Origin: Streptosporangium minutum
GTDB taxonomy: Bacteria; Actinomycetota; Actinomycetes; Streptosporangiales; Streptosporangiaceae
Direction: 5' to 3'
Length of the DNA: 41,223 nucleotides
Assembly: GCF_002149035.1 (NCBI RefSeq)
Contig: NZ_NGFP01000041.1
Coordinates: 5,104-46,326, forward strand
Within the stretch, counting starts at the first letter, position 1, and each line of letters begins with the position of its first letter. Positions 11,071 to 21,938 of the stretch are shown piece after piece. Below the pieces are notes generated by a model. It made no database searches and was not told the origin of the DNA. It worked only from the letters and a program-made list of their open reading frames with translations. Position numbers and translations under genes: made by a program.

Positions 11071-11143
11071 CCGGCGGGCGGTGCACGCGGTGCACGACGG
11101 GATCGCCGCACGACCGCCCGGACCGGCGCGTCAGACCCGGCCA

Positions 11144-11193
11144 CGCGGGTAGTCGCGGGTCAGACGCGGGCAGTCGCGGGCAGACGCGGGTCA
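11144..11193. repeat. 10-bp tandem repeats adjoining the pimB stop codon
   Basis: About five degenerate 10-base units of the type CGCGGG(T/C)(C)AG(T/A) run from 11144 up to and including the minus-strand stop codon of the mannosyltransferase (11191-11193). The rest of the 11071-11143 gap shows no feature. Confidence 0.6.
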
Positions 11194-12315
11194 GGAGGGT
11201 CGCGCCGGTTCGAGCAGCCGGGCGAAGCGGGTGGCGACCCGCTCCCAGTCCCACTCCCGCGTGACCCACTCGCGTCCGCGCCGGCCCATCTCCCGGGCCC
11301 TGGCCGGATCCGTGAGCAGGTCGATGAGGGCCCCGGCCACCTCGGCCGGGGAGGTCCCGTCCACGACCAGGCCGGTCTCCCCCTGCAGCACCGCGTCGGG
11401 GGCCCCGCCCGACGAGCCCGCCACCACGGGCAGCCCGCTGGCGGAGGCCTCCAGGTAGACGATGCCGAGCCCCTCCACGTCGATGCCGCCCAGCCGGGTA
11501 CGGCACGGCATGGCGAACACGTCGCCGGCGGCGAGGTAGGCGGGCAGCGCCGCCGACGGCACCGGCCCGGCGATCCTGACCGAGCCGCCCATCGGCCGGG
11601 CCAGCCGCTCCAGGGTCCTGCGGTACGGCCCGCCGCCGACGAGCAGCAGCACCCCGTCCGGCACGGCCCGCAGCACCTGGGGCCAGGCCCGCAGCAGGAC
11701 GTCCTGCCCCTTGCGCGGCACCAGCCGGGACAGGCAGACCACGACCGGCCGGTCCCCCAGCCCCAGCGCCGCGCGGACCTGTCCCGCACCGGCCTCCGGC
11801 CGGAACAGGCCGGTGTCGACGCCGGGCGCGAGCCGTACCAGCTTGCCGCCGGCGATCACCGGGGCCAGCCGCTGCCTGGTGTACTCCCCCAGGTAGGTGA
11901 CCACGTCGGCGTGGCGGCCGACCCTGGCCAGCAGGCGGCGGGCGAGCGGGACCTGCGCCCAGGAGGCCTCGTGGCCGTGGGTGATCATGACGATGCGCCC
12001 CGCGCCGGCGGCCCGCATCCTGGGCGCGAGCAGACCGAGCGGGGCCGCCGCCCCGAACACCACGGTGTCGCACTTGAACTCGGCGACCAGCTCCGCGGCC
12101 CGGCGGGCGACCGCGCGGGTGGGCAGCATCAGCGAGGTGGGGTGCCGCACGACCGGGTACGGCTGCCGGGCGTCGAACGCCTCGCAGCCGGGCCACCGCG
12201 GGGCGTAGACGACCACAGAGTCCGGCGGGAGGCAGGCGGCGAGACCGTGCACGAACGACTGGATGCCGCCCACCCGGGGCGGGAAGTCGTTGGTGACGAT
12301 CAGCGCGCGGTTCAC
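11191..12315 (-). CDS. pimB: GDP-mannose-dependent mannosyltransferase, PimB type (GT4)
   Basis: A 374-residue GT-B fold, family GT4 glycosyltransferase. The N-terminal glycine loop TNDFPPRVGGIQSFVHGL is near residues 8-25, the histidine of THGHEASWA near 118, the donor-binding Arg/Lys in SRLVPRKGQD near 205, and the E-x7-E type donor motif VEGLGIVYLEASASG near 285. These agree with PimB', which adds the second mannose to phosphatidylinositol monomannoside on the inner membrane face. GTG at 12315 overlaps the stop of the M48 protease gene (GTGA), so the longer frame upstream is rejected. The neighbouring fadD15-like gene supports the assignment. Another mannosyl- or glucosyltransferase of GT4 is the alternative. 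Confidence 0.82.
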   Translation of the reverse strand: MNRALIVTNDFPPRVGGIQSFVHGLAACLPPDSVVVYAPRWPGCEAFDARQPYPVVRHPTSLMLPTRAVARRAAELVAEFKCDTVVFGAAAPLGLLAPRMRAAGAGRIVMITHGHEASWAQVPLARRLLARVGRHADVVTYLGEYTRQRLAPVIAGGKLVRLAPGVDTGLFRPEAGAGQVRAALGLGDRPVVVCLSRLVPRKGQDVLLRAWPQVLRAVPDGVLLLVGGGPYRRTLERLARPMGGSVRIAGPVPSAALPAYLAAGDVFAMPCRTRLGGIDVEGLGIVYLEASASGLPVVAGSSGGAPDAVLQGETGLVVDGTSPAEVAGALIDLLTDPARAREMGRRGREWVTREWDWERVATRFARLLEPARPS

Positions 12316-13589
12316 GGCTCCCGCATGCCGTTCAGCAGGGCCCAGGAGCGCGCCATGGCGATGCGCTGCGGGGCTGTGGGGTGGGAGACGTAGAGGACGT
12401 ATTCGAAGGCGTCCGGCGACAGATCCGAGATGTTGGTGACCGACAGCCGTCTCTGCATGGACACGAACGCGGCCGGATCCCTGGTCAGGTCCAGCGCGTG
12501 CGCGTCGGCGCGAGCCTCGATGTGCCTGCTGACCAGGTTCTGCGCCGGCCCGGACAGGACCGTGGCCAGGCTCAGCAGCCCCATGACCAGGCCCACCGCC
12601 TTCGGGTCGGCCACCGAGGCGATCCCGGTGCGCCGCCGTACCGGCCGCCAGGACGCCGCGAGGTAGAGCAGGCACGCCCCGCAGGCCGCGCCCAGGGCGC
12701 CGACGAGCGTGCCGTACAGCACGTCGTCGGCCTTGGCGTGGCCCAGCTCGTGCGCGACCACCAGCTCGACCTCGTCGGCGGGGGCCCGCAGCAGCGTGTC
12801 GTAGACCACGATCCTGCGGGTCGCGCCGAAGCCGGAGACGTAGGCGTTGAGCGCGGTGGTCCGCCGGGAGGCGTCGGCGACCAGGACGTCCTCGACGGGC
12901 ACGCCGTCGCGGGCCGCCATGCTGAGCAGGTCGTCGCGGAGCTGCCCGGCGGGCATCGGCGTGAAGTCGTTGAAGACCGGCTCGATCAGCACGGGGTAGG
13001 CGAAGGAGGCGGCCACGGTCAGCGCGAACGCGCCGGCCGCCGCGGGGATCCACCAGCGCCGGTAGCGGCGCGCCAGCGCGACCACCGCGAGCACCATGAT
13101 CGCGTTCAGCCCGGTCCTGATGCCGATGTTCTTGACCCGGTCGGCCGTCCAGGCCGGCCAGTTCTGGGTGGAAAGGCCGAACTCGCGCAGGTAGGTCTCC
13201 GACCACATGCCCAGCGGCCAGCGGAGGATCTCCACCGCCACCGACAGGACGAGGACCCCGAGCAGCACCCGCAGCCACCACGGCCCCCTCAGCCGGCCGA
13301 GCAGCCGCGCGCCCAGCGGGGTGCTCACCAGGACCCCGGCCACCACGAGGGTCAGGCCGAGCGACAGGTAGGCGGGCGCGCTGACCGCCGCGTCGAAGGT
13401 CTCGGAGCGGGCGATCTGGTCCGGGGTGAAGTCGCGGGCCGGATCCGGCGGGACAGACGGGGCGGCGGCGGGCAGGGCCCGCCAGGGCGTGGTGAACGCC
13501 ACGATCGCCAGCGTGGCCGCGCCGAGCGCGGCCAGCGCCCACCCTGCCACCCTGATGCCCGAGGGCGCCTCCACCGTGGTCGTCGTCAT
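12312..13589 (-). CDS. M48 family integral membrane metalloprotease (Ste24/CAAX-type)
   Basis: A 425-residue polytopic zinc protease. There are five hydrophobic segments in the first 250 residues, then the zinc motif HELGH near residue 278, two further membrane segments, and the third-ligand region EARADAHAL near 352. The arrangement and the YVSGFGATRRIVVYDTLL stretch match the Ste24/CAAX-protease-1 class, which cleaves or quality-controls membrane proteins. ATG 13589 is chosen because AAGGGA lies just upstream and the sequence before it is a repeat array rather than protein-like; the open frame to 13880 is an artefact of the 48-bp repeats. It is coupled by a GTGA overlap to pimB downstream. 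Confidence 0.87.
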   Translation of the reverse strand: MTTTTVEAPSGIRVAGWALAALGAATLAIVAFTTPWRALPAAAPSVPPDPARDFTPDQIARSETFDAAVSAPAYLSLGLTLVVAGVLVSTPLGARLLGRLRGPWWLRVLLGVLVLSVAVEILRWPLGMWSETYLREFGLSTQNWPAWTADRVKNIGIRTGLNAIMVLAVVALARRYRRWWIPAAAGAFALTVAASFAYPVLIEPVFNDFTPMPAGQLRDDLLSMAARDGVPVEDVLVADASRRTTALNAYVSGFGATRRIVVYDTLLRAPADEVELVVAHELGHAKADDVLYGTLVGALGAACGACLLYLAASWRPVRRRTGIASVADPKAVGLVMGLLSLATVLSGPAQNLVSRHIEARADAHALDLTRDPAAFVSMQRRLSVTNISDLSPDAFEYVLYVSHPTAPQRIAMARSWALLNGMREP

Positions 13590-13804
13590 CGGATCCCTTC
13601 CCGCAGGCGTGTCGCAGCCCCCGGGGAGGCCGCAGGCATGCCCGTCGTGTCCCGCGCCATGGCGATCCCCCCGGAGGCCGCAGGCGTGCCCGCCGTGGTC
13701 CGCGTCACGGCGCCCCTTCCGGAGGCAGCAGGCATGCCTGTCATAGTCCGCGCCATGGCGATCCCCCCGGAGGCCGCAGGCGTGCCCGTCGTGGTCCGCG
13801 TCAA
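13586..13804 (-). CDS. Possible small repeat peptide (72 codons, four 16-residue units)
   Basis: This open frame is made almost entirely of the 48-bp repeat and would encode four units of the form M(T/A)R(T/D)xTG(T/M)PAAS followed by TRLREGIR. Its TTG start overlaps the TGA of the upstream peptidase gene (TTGA) and its TGA overlaps the ATG of the M48 gene (ATGA); GGAGGG lies seven bases before the TTG. Because each unit starts with an in-frame ATG, GTG or TTG behind a purine-rich site, the frame may be an array of start signals rather than a functional peptide. No homologue is known to me. Translation is uncertain. Confidence 0.3.
   Translation of the reverse strand: MTRTTTGTPAASGGIAMARTMTGMPAASGRGAVTRTTAGTPAASGGIAMARDTTGMPAASPGAATRLREGIR
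13613..13804. repeat. Four 48-bp tandem repeats, each with SD and start codon
   Basis: On the minus strand the units begin at 13804 (TTG), 13756 (ATG), 13708 (GTG) and 13660 (ATG), exactly 48 bases apart. Each of the later start codons is preceded by GGGGGGATCGCC or GGAAGGGGCGCC. Units 1 and 3 resemble each other and so do 2 and 4, giving a 96-base higher-order period. The array fills the gap between the HExxH peptidase and the M48 protease genes, and the unit resembles the M48 gene's own start (GGGATCCG-ATGACG). Confidence 0.9.
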
Positions 13805-14586
13805 CCCAGTTCCCTCCGGAGGTGGTCACGCCAGGCGGCGGTGAGCTCCGCCGGCGACAGGCCCAGCGCACTGCCGACATCGCTACCGTAGAGCCTCACC
13901 AGCGCCTTCTCACCGAAGCGCTCCGCGATGTAGCGGCAGGCGAGCCACGCCTCCTCGTAGGTCTGCGCCAGCCGCGGGGCGCCGGGGGCGAAGTCGGCGG
14001 CTCCGGGGAGGCGGGCGGGCAGGGTGCCGGCGCGCACCTCCGCGGCCAGCTCGGCGGCGGCCTCACGGACCCCGATCCCGGCGTCGCGGTATCCCACGTA
14101 GTCGGCGAACCCCTCCGACAGCCACATCGGCACCCGGCCACCGCGGGTCGCGCCGGTGGCCACGTGGGTGAGCTCGTGCGTGATCACCACGTCCCGGCCG
14201 ATCGCGCTGAGCCTCGCGTAACCCGACGGCAGGACGATCACCCTGTCGGCGGTGGCCATCGCGGCCAGCCCTCCCGTGCTCCCGGCGCCCGCGAGCGCCG
14301 CCGCCTCCGCGTCGGTGGCGGGAAAGAGGATCACCGGCCGGACCGGCCCCCAGATCCGCCCGACGGTACGGCGGGCACGGTCGGCCCTCGACGCCAGATC
14401 GCGGAGATCGGCGAGCGGGACGCGGTGGCCGATCACGACGGAGTGCTCCCCGCGGACCACGGTCGCGGCCCCCGGCCAGAGGCCGCGCGTCTCCTGCGGG
14501 AGCGGCCCCGCTCCGGCGGTCAGACCGGCGCTCATCAGCGCCAGCATCCCGGTGAGCACGGCGCGGCGCCCTCTCCGGACGGACAT
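13801..14586 (-). CDS. Secreted HExxH metallopeptidase-like protein (peptidase MA-like)
   Basis: A 261-residue protein with an Arg-rich n-region and hydrophobic signal (about residues 1-28). The gluzincin-like zinc motif HELTHVATGA lies near residue 137 with the third ligand in WLSEGFADYVGY near 157, so the active-site set is complete. It resembles the basic-secretory/peptidase-MA group. ATG 14586 has no good ribosome-binding site; it may be leaderless, or a later GTG/ATG (residue 10 or 14) may be used, which would shorten the signal. It is followed without a gap by the 48-bp array and then the M48 membrane protease, so two metalloproteases are probably cotranscribed. The substrate is unknown. 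Confidence 0.78.
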   Translation of the reverse strand: MSVRRGRRAVLTGMLALMSAGLTAGAGPLPQETRGLWPGAATVVRGEHSVVIGHRVPLADLRDLASRADRARRTVGRIWGPVRPVILFPATDAEAAALAGAGSTGGLAAMATADRVIVLPSGYARLSAIGRDVVITHELTHVATGATRGGRVPMWLSEGFADYVGYRDAGIGVREAAAELAAEVRAGTLPARLPGAADFAPGAPRLAQTYEEAWLACRYIAERFGEKALVRLYGSDVGSALGLSPAELTAAWRDHLRRELG

Positions 14587-15246: not shown

Positions 15247-15272
15247 GATTTCTCCTTGGGGCTTCCACTGAT

Positions 15273-15408
15273 GCCTACCGGGTTAGCTGACGGATTCGGA
15301 CGGGGAAGTCGCCCTACGGCATGAAATATGCCGATTCACCCCTGGCCACACCTTGAGGGCCCTTGGGTCCCCGGTTCCATGCCTCCTGGCTGCACGGATT
15401 CGGCAAGC
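15273..15408 (-). ncRNA. c-di-AMP riboswitch (ydaO/yuaA)
   Basis: The leader of the NlpC/P60 gene carries hallmark segments of the ydaO/yuaA aptamer in order on the minus strand: GCCGAATCCG, GGAACCGGGGACCCA, CAGGGGTGAATCGGC, GTAGGGCGACTTCCCCG and CCGAATCCGTCAGCTAACCC. The outer P1 helix closes between GCTTGCC (15408-15402) and GGTAGGC (15279-15273). The class binds cyclic di-AMP and usually turns expression off; in actinobacteria it often precedes cell-wall hydrolase genes. Only 15 bases separate P1 from AAGGAG, so control could act on ribosome access; no separate terminator stem is visible. Confidence 0.92.
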
Positions 15409-15463
15409 CACCGCGATGGGGTCCAGCCCCGGAGGGGAGCGGCGGCCGATTGGATTTTCCGCG

Positions 15464-16877: not shown

Positions 16878-18149
16878 ATGCCTGTCCCGTCCCACCACAC
16901 CTCATTCGCCGGCTGGCTTGGCGCCCATGCCGTCCCGCTCACCCACCTCGACCCCGAGGCGCCGCTCGATGACCTGGAGCCGCTGCGCGAGCTCATCGGC
17001 AACGCGCGCGTCGTCGCGATCGGTGAGAACTCCCACTTCATCAACGAGTTCGCGCTCATGCGCCGGCGCATCCTGCGGTTCCTGGTCGAACGCTGTGGCT
17101 TCACCGTCCTGGCCTTCGAGTACGGCTTCAGCGAAGGCTTTCCCCTTGACGCGTGGGCTCAAGGCGAGGGCACGGACGATGACCTGTCGGCCCACCTCGC
17201 CACGGCGATCCCCGTGGGGCTCGATGAGCCACTGCGCTGGATGCGCCGGCGCAACGCCACAGCCGCGGCGCCGGTCCGTTTCGCCGGGATCGACATCCCG
17301 GCGGCCGGTGGGTCCGTGCTTCCCGCCCTGGCACCGGTCGCCGACTACCTGCGCCAGGTCGATCCCGAGACCCTCCCCGCGATCCAGAAGGCGATGCGGA
17401 TCGCCGAATCGTTCGCCGGCGCCTCCGCGGCCGCGGCCGCACCGGCCTGGACCCGCCTGGCCGCCGCCGAGCAGGACGCCCTCAGCGCGACCCTGATGCG
17501 TCTGCTCATCCGGTTCCGCGCCGTCGCACCGCTGTACGTCTCCCGTGGTGACCAGCACAGTTATGACATCGCCCTGCGTCGCCTCGAGGCCGCCTGCCAC
17601 GCCGACTACGGCTTTCGCGCCATGGCCGGCCTGTACGCCGGCAACGGCCTGACCGCCGACACCTCGGCCCGGGACGTCTACATGGCCGGGTCGATCCTGT
17701 GGCACCTGGAGCGCCTCCACCCCGGGACCCGGATCGTGCTGGCGGCCCACAACGCCCACATCCAGAAAACGCCGGTCTCCTTCAACGGCCACCTCACCGG
17801 GCTCCCCATGGGACAGCACCTGCACAGCTCCCTGGGCGATGACTACGTCGCCCTCGCCCTGACCGGCATCACCGGACACACCGCCGACATGCGCCCCGAC
17901 GAGAACGCCCGCTTCGGTTTCGCCATCGACGACACCGCGCTGGAGCCGCCCGAGCAGGGAAGCGTCGAAGCCGCCTTCGCCGACGCCGGCCTGGGGCTCA
18001 GCATCGCCGACCTCCGCCGGGCGCACCACGAGGTCCCCGGCCCCGACCGCATCCGGATCCAGAGCGCCTACCTGCACACCCCCGTCCTCGACGCGTTCGA
18101 CGGCGTCCTCAGCACCCCGACCTCCACCGTGGCCGACATCGCAAGCTGA
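16878..18149 (+). CDS. Erythromycin esterase family protein
   Basis: A 423-residue protein of the erythromycin-esterase (EreA/B-like) family. The conserved pieces are present in order: GENSHFINEF near residue 50 (Glu and His of the active site), AFEYGFSEGF near 80, a central ADYGFRAMAG region, and AAHNAHIQK near 300. Some members hydrolyse macrolide lactones; many others have unknown substrates, so macrolide resistance is a hypothesis. The ribosome-binding site before ATG 16878 is weak. It is divergent from tetR and shares the double-operator region. A FAD monooxygenase follows on the same strand after 145 bases. The product has no signal peptide and should be cytoplasmic. Confidence 0.85.
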   Translation: MPVPSHHTSFAGWLGAHAVPLTHLDPEAPLDDLEPLRELIGNARVVAIGENSHFINEFALMRRRILRFLVERCGFTVLAFEYGFSEGFPLDAWAQGEGTDDDLSAHLATAIPVGLDEPLRWMRRRNATAAAPVRFAGIDIPAAGGSVLPALAPVADYLRQVDPETLPAIQKAMRIAESFAGASAAAAAPAWTRLAAAEQDALSATLMRLLIRFRAVAPLYVSRGDQHSYDIALRRLEAACHADYGFRAMAGLYAGNGLTADTSARDVYMAGSILWHLERLHPGTRIVLAAHNAHIQKTPVSFNGHLTGLPMGQHLHSSLGDDYVALALTGITGHTADMRPDENARFGFAIDDTALEPPEQGSVEAAFADAGLGLSIADLRRAHHEVPGPDRIRIQSAYLHTPVLDAFDGVLSTPTSTVADIAS

Positions 18150-18294: not shown

Positions 18295-19824
18295 GTGACG
18301 AACGCCGATGTGATCATTGTGGGGGCCGGGCCGACCGGTCTCATGCTGGCCGTTGAACTGCGTTTGGCCGGGGTGCGGCCGTTGGTGCTGGAACGGCAGC
18401 CGAAGCGCCGGGACATCCCCAAGGCCGGGGGCCTGGGCGGGCAGATCCTGGAGCTGCTGCGCTGTCGCGGGTTGCTGGAACGATTCGAAGCCGCCTGCAC
18501 CGGCCCCGCTCCCGCCCCTCGCTTCCCGTTCGGCGGGGTGCACCTGGACTTCACCCAACTGGCAGACCCGCCGCTGCACGCTCTGCCGCTACCGCAGCAG
18601 CAACTCGAGCGGCTGCTCGACGACCGCGCCGCCGAACTCGGTGTCGACATCCGCCGGGGGCACGAGGTGGCCGGGGCTAGCCAGGACGACGCAGCGGTGA
18701 GGGTGGACGTGCGCGGCCCCGACGGGCCGTACCAGGTGAGCGCCCGCTACCTCGTGGGCTGCGACGGCGCGCGCAGCCGGGTCCGGGACCTGGCCGGCAT
18801 CGGCTTCCCCGGCACCACCTATCCGGAGGTCAACCGGCTGGCCCAGGTCAGCTTGCCCGACACGGTGACCGTGCTCGGCAATGGCGATCTCGACGTGCCC
18901 GGCTTCGGCACGATCCGCGCGGGTTTCACCCGGACGGACCACGGCCTGTTCGGCCTCGGCTCCTCGCCTGATTCCAAGGTCGTCTCCCTCTACACCACCG
19001 AAGACGAGAGCACCGAATACGACGACGACATCCCGATGACCGTCGCCGAACTCCAGGACGGCATCCGCCGCGTGCTCGGCGTGAACCTGCCCGTGGGAGA
19101 GGCGATCCGGCTGTCGCGCTTCACCTTCAAGGCCCGGCAGGCCGAACGCTACCGCCAGGGGCGGATCCTGCTCGCCGGCGATGCGGCGCACCTGTTCCCG
19201 GCCACCGGCGTGGCACTCAACGCCGGCATGCTGGACGCGGTCAACCTGGCCTGGAAGCTGGCCGCCGACCTGCAGGGCTGGGCGCCGACCGGCCTGCTGG
19301 ACACCTACCACGACGAACGTCACCTCGCCGGCGCCCGCACCATGCTGCACACCCGCGCCCAGGTGGCCCTGCGGCGCGGACACGACGCGGCCGCCGAAGC
19401 ACTGCGAGACGTCTTCTCCGAACTGCTCACCGACGAACAACCGCTGCGCCGGATGGGAGCCCTGGTCGCCGGCACCGACATCCGCTACCCGATGCCAGGC
19501 ATGAGCCACCACCCGCTGACCGGCACCTTCACTCCCGACCTCACCCTGCACACCGACCAGGGCGTCACCGGCGTCGCGCAACTCATGCACCCCGCCCGGC
19601 CCATCCTGCTCGACCTCGCCGACCGCCCGGACCTCCGCCGGCACGCCTGGGACTGGCGACATCGCGTCGACGTCCACACCGCCAAAACCGATGACCGACC
19701 GGCCGACGCCCTGCTGATCCGCCCGGACGGCCACATCGCCTGGGCCGCGACCCTCGACGAACCTGCCGGCACCACCGCGCCCGCGCTGCGCGAAGCGCTC
19801 TCCTCCTGGTTCGGCACACCCTGA
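18295..19824 (+). CDS. FAD-dependent aromatic/polyketide hydroxylase
   Basis: A 509-residue class A flavoprotein monooxygenase. It has the FAD dinucleotide fold GAGPTGLMLAVELRLAG at residues 9-25, the DG motif GCDGARSRVRDLAG near 158, and the GD motif GRILLAGDAAHLFPATG near 293. The C-terminal part (after about residue 400) resembles the thioredoxin-like domain of phenol hydroxylase/polyketide hydroxylases. Relatives hydroxylate aromatic polyketides or inactivate rifamycins and tetracyclines. The GTG start has GAGGAG about eight bases upstream. With the TetR regulator and Ere-family enzyme next to it, a detoxification or small-molecule tailoring cassette is plausible. A 23-bp tandem duplication covers its stop codon. 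Confidence 0.88.
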   Translation: MTNADVIIVGAGPTGLMLAVELRLAGVRPLVLERQPKRRDIPKAGGLGGQILELLRCRGLLERFEAACTGPAPAPRFPFGGVHLDFTQLADPPLHALPLPQQQLERLLDDRAAELGVDIRRGHEVAGASQDDAAVRVDVRGPDGPYQVSARYLVGCDGARSRVRDLAGIGFPGTTYPEVNRLAQVSLPDTVTVLGNGDLDVPGFGTIRAGFTRTDHGLFGLGSSPDSKVVSLYTTEDESTEYDDDIPMTVAELQDGIRRVLGVNLPVGEAIRLSRFTFKARQAERYRQGRILLAGDAAHLFPATGVALNAGMLDAVNLAWKLAADLQGWAPTGLLDTYHDERHLAGARTMLHTRAQVALRRGHDAAAEALRDVFSELLTDEQPLRRMGALVAGTDIRYPMPGMSHHPLTGTFTPDLTLHTDQGVTGVAQLMHPARPILLDLADRPDLRRHAWDWRHRVDVHTAKTDDRPADALLIRPDGHIAWAATLDEPAGTTAPALREALSSWFGTP

Positions 19825-20796: not shown

Positions 20797-20957
20797 CCGG
20801 GAGAGGCCGTCAGGACAGCCGGGAGAGGCCGTCAAGACAGCCTGGAGAGACCGTCAGGGGCGGACGAGAGGGCGTCAGGGACAGCCCTCTGGAAGAGACC
20901 ATCAGGGACGGACCGGAGAGGCCGTCAGGCGGACCGGAGAGGGTGTCAGGGGCGGAC
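20797..20957. repeat. Degenerate 21-25-bp minisatellite (about seven units)
   Basis: Seven imperfect units of the form CCGGGAGAGGCCGTCAGGACAG run from 20797 to about 20957; the first two (20797-20840) differ by one base. The last unit overlaps the stop codon of the second NlpC/P60 gene (20946-20948). Units are contiguous with no spacers, so this is not a CRISPR array. Bases 20698-20796 show no other feature. Confidence 0.8.
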
Positions 20958-21938
20958 GGCCCCGACCAGGCGGCGGCCGTAGGCCGACAGGGGGACGACT
21001 TTGACGACGTCTCCGGTCTGCGGGGCGTGGACGATCTTGCCGTTGCCCGCGTAGAGGCTCACATGGCCCAGTCCCTCGCTGAAGATGAGGTCCCCGGCCT
21101 GGAGCTCGCTCACTGAGACCTTGCGGCTCGCGCCCCAGCTCCACTGCTCCCAGGTCGTGCGGGGAAGGCTGACGCCGCCGCTGCGCCAGGCGGCCTGGAC
21201 GAGGCCGGAGCAGTCCCAGCCCCCCGGGCCCGTGCCGCCGTACTGGTAGGGCTTGCCGACCTGGGCGAAGGCGAAGGCCAGGGCGGCCCGGGCGTTGCCC
21301 GAGGCCGGGCCGTTGTACTGGATCCCGGTGCTGTTGGGATCGCCGGTCCGGAAGGTGCCGAGCTCGCGCAGCAGCTTGGTCTGGGCCTTCACCATCTTCT
21401 CGACCTTGGCCTTCTCCGCGGCCAGCTCGTCACGCGTCTTGTCGGCCTCGGCCAGTGCCTCCTTGGCCGTGTCGCGGCTCACACGCAGCAGCTTGTTCGC
21501 CTCGTCGAAGGCCTCCAGGGACAGGGCACGGGAGGCGGCCATCTGGTCGACGGCGGCCAGGCCGCTCAGCAGCGTTCCGGGATCGGGCTTGTTGATCATG
21601 CCCTCCCAGCCGCTCACCCCGCCGAGCTGGTAGCTGCTGACCGCCATCGTGACGAGCTCCTGGCGCAGCCCTGCGACCTTGGCGTTCTGGCGCGTGAGGT
21701 CGCCGTTCAGCGCCCGGTACTTCTTGCGGGCCTTCTTCAGCTTCTCGCCGGCCTGGTTGTACTTCTCGACGACCTTGTCGGCCTGGTCGTTGAGCTTCTC
21801 CAGCTTCTTCTTGGCCTGGGCGACGGTCGGCTTCGGTTCGGCGAAGGCACCGCCGACCGGTAGCAGGAACAGCGCGAGCGCCACCCCCACAGCCATCGGC
21901 ATCCGCCCGAACCCACCCGGCATACCCGCCACGGCCAC
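20946..21938 (-). CDS. Secreted coiled-coil NlpC/P60 peptidoglycan endopeptidase (RipA/Rv2190c-like)
   Basis: A 330-residue exported hydrolase. A signal peptide ends near residue 34 (AFA), then a Lys/Glu/Ala-rich coiled coil spans about residues 38-195, and the C-terminal NlpC/P60 domain has the catalytic Cys in GWDCSGLVQAAW, the His in GLGHVSLYAG and the third residue in KIVHAPQTGD. Coiled-coil NlpC/P60 proteins such as RipA act at the septum, and the coiled coil usually restrains or targets the enzyme. The GTG start has GGAGG seven bases upstream. Its place next to the pimB/fadD region and the exonuclease gene matches the Rv2190c position. Unlike the other NlpC/P60 gene it has no riboswitch, only a short leader with a TACTAT -10-like element. 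Confidence 0.9.
   Translation of the reverse strand: MAVAGMPGGFGRMPMAVGVALALFLLPVGGAFAEPKPTVAQAKKKLEKLNDQADKVVEKYNQAGEKLKKARKKYRALNGDLTRQNAKVAGLRQELVTMAVSSYQLGGVSGWEGMINKPDPGTLLSGLAAVDQMAASRALSLEAFDEANKLLRVSRDTAKEALAEADKTRDELAAEKAKVEKMVKAQTKLLRELGTFRTGDPNSTGIQYNGPASGNARAALAFAFAQVGKPYQYGGTGPGGWDCSGLVQAAWRSGGVSLPRTTWEQWSWGASRKVSVSELQAGDLIFSEGLGHVSLYAGNGKIVHAPQTGDVVKVVPLSAYGRRLVGAVRP

Follow-up and report, generated by a model that had tools for sequence, protein, structure and literature searches.

Between two metalloprotease genes of a soil actinomycete, Streptosporangium minutum, lies a short run of repeats in which every unit looks like a translation start of its own, and the question raised by this locus is where such a run comes from and what becomes of the ribosomes that reach it. 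The window (the whole stretch of 41,223 nucleotides that was analysed) had previously been read from its letters alone. The original prediction described four 48-base units carrying TTG, ATG, GTG and ATG in one frame of 72 codons, which overlaps the upstream stop as TTGA and the M48 start as ATGA; all of these elements were found in place, on the minus strand. The features of the locus, listed 5' to 3' on that strand, are the following.

13801..14586, minus strand: upstream gene, Peptidase_MA-like metallopeptidase, 261 aa, with a HELTH (HExxH) motif in its translation
13586..13804, minus strand: 72-codon open frame spanning the array, its stop lying within the ATGA of the M48 start
13757..13804, minus strand: unit 1, TTG start, overlapping the upstream TGA stop as TTGA; same position as the M48 start of relatives (positional homolog)
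13709..13756, minus strand: unit 2, ATG start
13661..13708, minus strand: unit 3, GTG start, 46 of 48 bases identical to unit 1
13613..13660, minus strand: unit 4, ATG start
13590..13612, minus strand: array tail, 23 nt, resembling a shortened second half of the unit, with an SD-like GAAGGG
12312..13589, minus strand: downstream gene, M48 (CAAX-protease-like) membrane metallopeptidase, 425 aa, starting MTTTTVEAPSG

The intercistronic array thus comprises four 48-nt units (13804-13613) and the 23-nt tail, which sets the unit starts out of frame with M48; the M48 ATG (13589-13587) follows directly 3' of the tail. TRF scored the array at 247 with a period of 48 and at 314 with a period of 96. None of 40 dinucleotide-preserving shuffles of the entire window scored above 84, and the array is therefore not a product of chance. 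The near-identity of units 1 and 3 stands against 35-37 matching bases in the remaining pairs and probably reflects recent copying of one unit. A second degenerate tandem array with 22/44-bp units of the GAGAGGCCGTCAGGACAG type is present at 20800-20958 of the window, possibly in an intergenic position, and a degenerate 10/21/31-bp tandem repeat (11126-11194) is found at the 3' end of a glycosyltransferase gene (11191-12291, minus strand) whose stop adjoins it.

That both flanking genes encode metalloproteases, as had been proposed, holds for the downstream gene, which matches M48 at 84.3 bits (Pfam cutoff 20.3) and whose N-terminal domain is of the CAAX-protease type. The upstream gene matches Peptidase_MA_2 with 24.5 bits, under the Pfam cutoff of 32.4 bits, but carries the HELTH motif. 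The gene pair is old, since a homolog of the upstream gene lies at most 1.4 kb before M48 in 94 of 96 loci from Streptosporangium to Kribbella; a search with the upstream protein across the family gave a match in 115 of 200 genomes.

The M48 gene was present in all 16 Streptosporangium genomes compared. Its junction with the upstream gene is a plain 4-nt NTGA stop/start overlap in nine of them, a near-overlap in one, a spacer of about 50-190 nt in four and an array in two, these being the window genome (4 units) and Streptosporangium canum CGMCC 4.2126 (3 units), the sister of the window species. Both array carriers share the TTGA, the 48-nt units, the 23-nt tail, the ATGA and the frame, so that the frame and its two overlaps are preserved in a relative. 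In a tree of both proteins, made with a quick method, the array pair is grouped with an SH-aLRT of 98 inside a five-species clade with an SH-aLRT of 99, and the other three species of this clade have the plain overlap; the array is hence a derived state. Copy number, which had been suspected to vary, does so between the two sister species (4 versus 3, one genome per species, both draft assemblies in which unit counts are possibly misassembled), and it does so with the frame kept. The accompanying idea of a phase-variable on/off switch did not survive: as 48 is a multiple of 3, gain or loss of 48 nt changes neither frames nor overlaps, and both are the same with 3 or with 4 units.

Arrays of this layout are known from the MIRUs. 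In the available excerpts, these are described as minisatellites of mainly intergenic location, with 40-100-bp units and a hypothesized transcription as part of operons (PMC3635867), which occur also in senX3-regX3 (PMC4213456) and are variable in copy number (PMC3635867, PMC4213456, PMC12548453). According to the accessible part of a 2025 review, the MIRU ORF couples to the next gene at -4 nt, and ORFs coupled in this way likely permit insertion with little effect on expression (PMC12548453). To the extent covered by these excerpts, the array here is alike in consisting of tandem units of the 40-100-bp class (48 nt) in an intercistronic position, in 4 and 3 copies, and in that its ORF ends in the ATGA of the next start (-4 nt). 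In the original MIRU description by Supply et al. from 1997, the ORF reportedly overlaps the upstream stop as well. A mobile MIRU-like element inserted at an ATGA junction would accordingly lead to the same outcome, namely an ORF overlapping at both ends of a stop-start junction and present in variable copy number. However, dispersal, which is defining for MIRUs, was not seen. The 219-nt sequence was found at one place only in the genome of the window, and a model of the seven units, searched against the 16 genus genomes with the best 150 candidates per genome scored, returned only the known 4 + 3 units (48-58 bits), the next matches reaching about 20 bits; no second location of the unit was found among these candidates. 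Moreover, the sequence within the unit is that of the junction hosting it, of which the unit appears to be a copy, and we consider the insertion of a mobile element extremely improbable.

The origin of the unit was analysed by comparing it to the junctions of relatives. The original prediction had noted that the unit resembles the initiation region of M48, as if this region had been duplicated repeatedly, and this derivation is borne out. Anchored at the start codon, unit 1 and the M48 start share 16 of 18 bases in five relatives, while the best of 3886 NTG sites in the same loci reached 13. This background best was exceeded in 11 of 16 genomes, including the own M48 starts of the array genomes (14 and 15 of 18). 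The nearest non-array relative by M48 identity (G004, locus L004; 89%) scored 12 of 18, a value equalled by 46 of the 3886 background sites, and L015 scored 13 of 18, i.e. not above the background best. The scores of L011, L013 and L016 (7, 8 and 9) are uninformative, because they were anchored at the start of the match and not at the gene start. The unit model also gave weak matches (14.6-16.5 bits, E 0.09-0.27) at the M48 starts of G013, G007, G012 and G006, in agreement with descent of the unit from the 5' end of M48. Because its first position is the start codon, the model is silent on the half that lies upstream of this codon in the junction.

For this other half, the end of the upstream gene is a candidate source. 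An SD-like CCTCCGGAGGG sits in the last codons of the upstream gene, and its core, with at most one mismatch, precedes the next start in five of seven units (as CCTCCGGAAGG in three units and CCTCCGGGGGG in two). If one mismatch is allowed, each of these SD-core 11-mers is matched at 3 of 65453 background positions. The core is missing from the last unit of each species, which has diverged. Alignment of the whole unit to the junctions gave scores of 39, 35 and 33 for G011 (L005), G001 (L006) and G006 (L012), as high as none of 1822 background windows. Eleven of the 14 non-array junctions were not above the background maximum (e.g. L010 with 31, L004 with 25, L015 with 20 and L008 with 12), the score of L004 being reached by 24 of the 1822 windows; the maximum itself, 32, was obtained with windows of L009 extending to its M48 start, and the background thus partly carries the signal itself. 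Aligned freely to the upstream gene end, the second half of the unit did not stand out significantly: its score was reached by 377 of 8942 background windows with one form and by 177 with another, and for some relatives nucleotides 16-60 of M48 provide an equal or better fit. This free alignment does not settle the origin of the second half; the SD core, taken together with its position, is the informative feature. On these comparisons the first half of the unit can be firmly assigned to the M48 5' end, the upstream gene end appears as the better of two local origins for the second half, and the unit as a whole is most likely a copy of the local junction.

The fit to M48 nucleotides 16-60 leads to a different history, in which an in-frame N-terminal tail of M48 expanded, in the manner of many relatives, and was later split off by the loss of 25 nt. 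In support of it, the peptide of the unit, MTRTTT, resembles the M48 starts MTQTMT and MTRTMT, and the interval itself is a recurrent repeat hotspot in relatives. Of the 14361 bases that separate the upstream stop from the conserved M48 part, 15.3% lie in TRF arrays (score >=70, 88 loci), as compared to 0.57% in the body of the upstream gene and 0.31% in that of M48. Arrays were found in this interval in 21 of 88 loci, and of the 29 array rows 24 have a period divisible by 3. Once the two array genomes are set aside, the corresponding values are 19 of 86 and 21 of 25; some TRF rows are one array described twice. These counts use 88 of the 96 loci: six duplicates (L032, L033, L034, L037, L041 and L074) were excluded, as were L066 (54 nt upstream on the contig) and L095, which have no upstream homolog.

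In Nonomuraea, the arrays lie inside long repeat-rich N-terminal tails of M48 of up to 196 aa by the earliest-start rule, i.e. with the first in-frame start codon counted from the -4 position onwards. The 48 of 88 loci counted by this rule are an upper estimate, since the rule takes the earliest start and in Nonomuraea the genuine start is apparently an ATG that lies about 12 nt farther in and is preceded by GGGGAGG. These tails share with the window array the gene, the interval and periods that are mostly multiples of 3, and differ in that the repeats of the window are out of frame with M48 and bear stop-start overlaps at their ends. A pure tail expansion does not predict the upstream SD core found at the right spacing in the majority of units, and an in-frame 48-nt array at the M48 junction was seen in none of the 16 genus genomes. 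The split-off tail is thus a tentative alternative with a real but minor probability; it overlaps with the explanation that we prefer, the two differing in the extent of the first duplication, and their probabilities consequently do not add up to one.

Other repeats occupy the same interval. L071, L079, L081, L063, L072 and further loci carry differing tandem repeats with periods of 6-60 bp, and L090 (Actinomadura pelletieri) has an unrelated 53-bp x 3.1 array that begins at the upstream stop of the same junction, with a period that is not a multiple of 3 and a core pattern found once in the genome as an exact match. The TGAGCGMAGCGARTCG element of the Actinomadura junction has one exact match in each of 2 of 5 genomes.

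What the array does was addressed from its divergence between the two species. It differs at 21 of 168 bases (12.5%), and the flanks at 13 of 786 bases in the upstream gene and 33 of 1278 in M48 (1.7-2.6%). This count leaves aside unit 3 of the window, which nearly duplicates unit 1, and compares the second units of the two species with each other; excluding this last pair gives 12 of 120. The differences fall on the three codon positions as 8/7/6, and the changed codons comprise 12 nonsynonymous and 4 synonymous ones. No sign of purifying selection on the array peptide was detected in this two-species comparison, and the conserved, functional repeat peptide that had been suggested was rejected, the differences being spread evenly over codon positions and mostly nonsynonymous.

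An unconstrained peptide is in line with a neutral repeat, i.e. a tolerated minisatellite whose 72-codon frame stays untranslated while M48 is started from its own SD. The M48 frame is likewise open across the whole array, which indicates that open frames come cheaply here and makes the open 72-codon frame weak evidence. An SD-like site is retained just before M48 (GAAGGG in the window, GGAGGG in S. canum), hence M48 may not need coupling, and the fact that 4 of 16 genomes get by with spacers of about 50-190 nt indicates that tight coupling is inessential in the genus. On the other hand, the TTGA, the ATGA, the 48-nt length and the unit NTGs were all kept despite the 12.5% divergence, an argument that is weak as it comes from two species, and a purely neutral array is in our view rather unlikely. 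Two further routes into M48 were rejected: an N-terminally extended M48 read through the array, for which inspection of the translation revealed no ATG, GTG or TTG in the M48 frame before the M48 ATG, and a -1 frameshift into M48, for which no X XXY YYZ heptamer was seen by eye at the tail.

An NTG (ATG, GTG or TTG) opens all seven units of the two species. TTG is a weak start codon, and the SD pairing energy at unit 1 of the window, which has it, is -10.0 kcal/mol; the internal starts range from -7.3 to -9.4 and M48 has -7.0 kcal/mol. The S. canum values are, in corresponding order, -10.0, -7.3, -7.3 and -11.3 kcal/mol, and those of the plain-overlap genomes lie between -10.0 and -10.3 kcal/mol in the seven of nine that were scored. 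Similar GGAGG-plus-start combinations can be found in antisense orientation in all 4 window units and in 1 of the 3 S. canum units, so that the conserved NTG alone is weak evidence. The array may conceivably tune the coupling of the two proteases, as the original prediction suggested. The NTG with an SD-like site at every unit start (-7.3 to -10.0 kcal/mol) and the copy number of 4 versus 3 would suit a rheostat, in which the number of ribosome re-entry sites sets the output of M48 per upstream protease and the peptide is a by-product. Against such a device, the internal starts all lie in a single frame closed by a single stop, and extra starts would accordingly only add flow; we regard the rheostat as quite unlikely.

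An element acting at the DNA or RNA level, be it a promoter, an operator array or a riboswitch, was considered as well. The MIRU region of senX3-regX3 can drive expression of regX3, according to the accessible part of the source (PMC4213456), and GGCATGCC palindromes are present in 2 of 4 window units. The palindrome is found in 0 of 3 S. canum units, however, and a scan with E. coli-type consensus sequences, insensitive for actinomycetes, showed no promoter- or terminator-like site at the array. The RNA fold of the array is ordinary (z -0.62; 52 of 200 shuffles fold as well) and no Rfam match was obtained there, on which grounds a structured RNA was rejected. We therefore hold any such element to be very unlikely.

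With moderate confidence, we interpret the array as a young, locus-specific minisatellite that arose by in-place tandem duplication of a putative coupling junction. In the ancestor, the upstream gene end and the M48 start would have met in one ATGA behind an SD located inside the upstream gene. About 48 nt spanning this junction, namely the SD part of the upstream gene and the first M48 codons, would then have been duplicated in the common ancestor of the window species and S. canum; that the first duplication spanned the junction is suggested by the composition of the units. Copy number would have shifted later, to 3 in S. canum and to 4 in the window species. The first copy would retain the old junction as TTGA, and the start of M48 would have moved to the ATGA of the last copy. 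The units would be read in the former frame of M48, and the last copy, 25 nt short, would detach M48: with a tail 25 nt short of a full unit, the M48 frame is shifted.

According to this duplication model, ribosomes leaving the upstream gene would reinitiate at TTGA, cross the unconstrained 72-codon frame and reinitiate at ATGA, and coupling would in consequence be kept and the insert tolerated. Internal starts, if used, would lead through the same frame to the same final stop. Most plausibly, then, the 72-codon frame carries ribosomes that have finished the upstream gene on to the start of M48. We infer that coupling and reinitiation take place from the layout, which resembles known termination-reinitiation coupling in having an NTGA overlap and an SD-like site at both ends of the array frame; an NTGA overlap with an SD in the upstream gene is likewise found at the junction in 9 of the 16 genus genomes, with the SD energy scored in 7 of these 9. 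It differs from such coupling in that a non-conserved frame lies between the two genes, and the coupling itself is putative. The best reading of the frame is that it preserves stop-start coupling in a MIRU-like, yet undispersed layout.

In the literature searched, mostly outside subscription journals, no equivalent of a tandemly duplicated coupling junction was found. The TAACTGA repeats of Beggiatoaceae are also direct repeats adjoining start codons, but are heptamers at many loci and, in the available part of the source, no junction copies (PMC4679880). The locus would thus represent a case in which the MIRU layout, a coupled-ORF intercistronic minisatellite, arose without a mobile element, through duplication of a stop/start overlap. 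As the presumed ancestral, the 3-copy and the 4-copy states all exist in sequenced species, what a relay of this kind would do to translation of the downstream gene is directly measurable.

The surroundings of the gene pair contain further features. A c-di-AMP riboswitch (RF00379, 82.8 bits) was identified at 15257-15415 of the window on the minus strand, followed by a gene for a cell-wall hydrolase of the NlpC/P60 type (14662..), which closely precedes the protease pair in the same orientation; riboswitch, hydrolase gene and protease pair could be on one shared transcript. Further along, on the plus strand, an EreB-type erythromycin esterase-like gene (16878-18149) and a rifampin-monooxygenase-type FAD monooxygenase-like gene (18295-19824) were recognized, both scoring below the curated cutoff.
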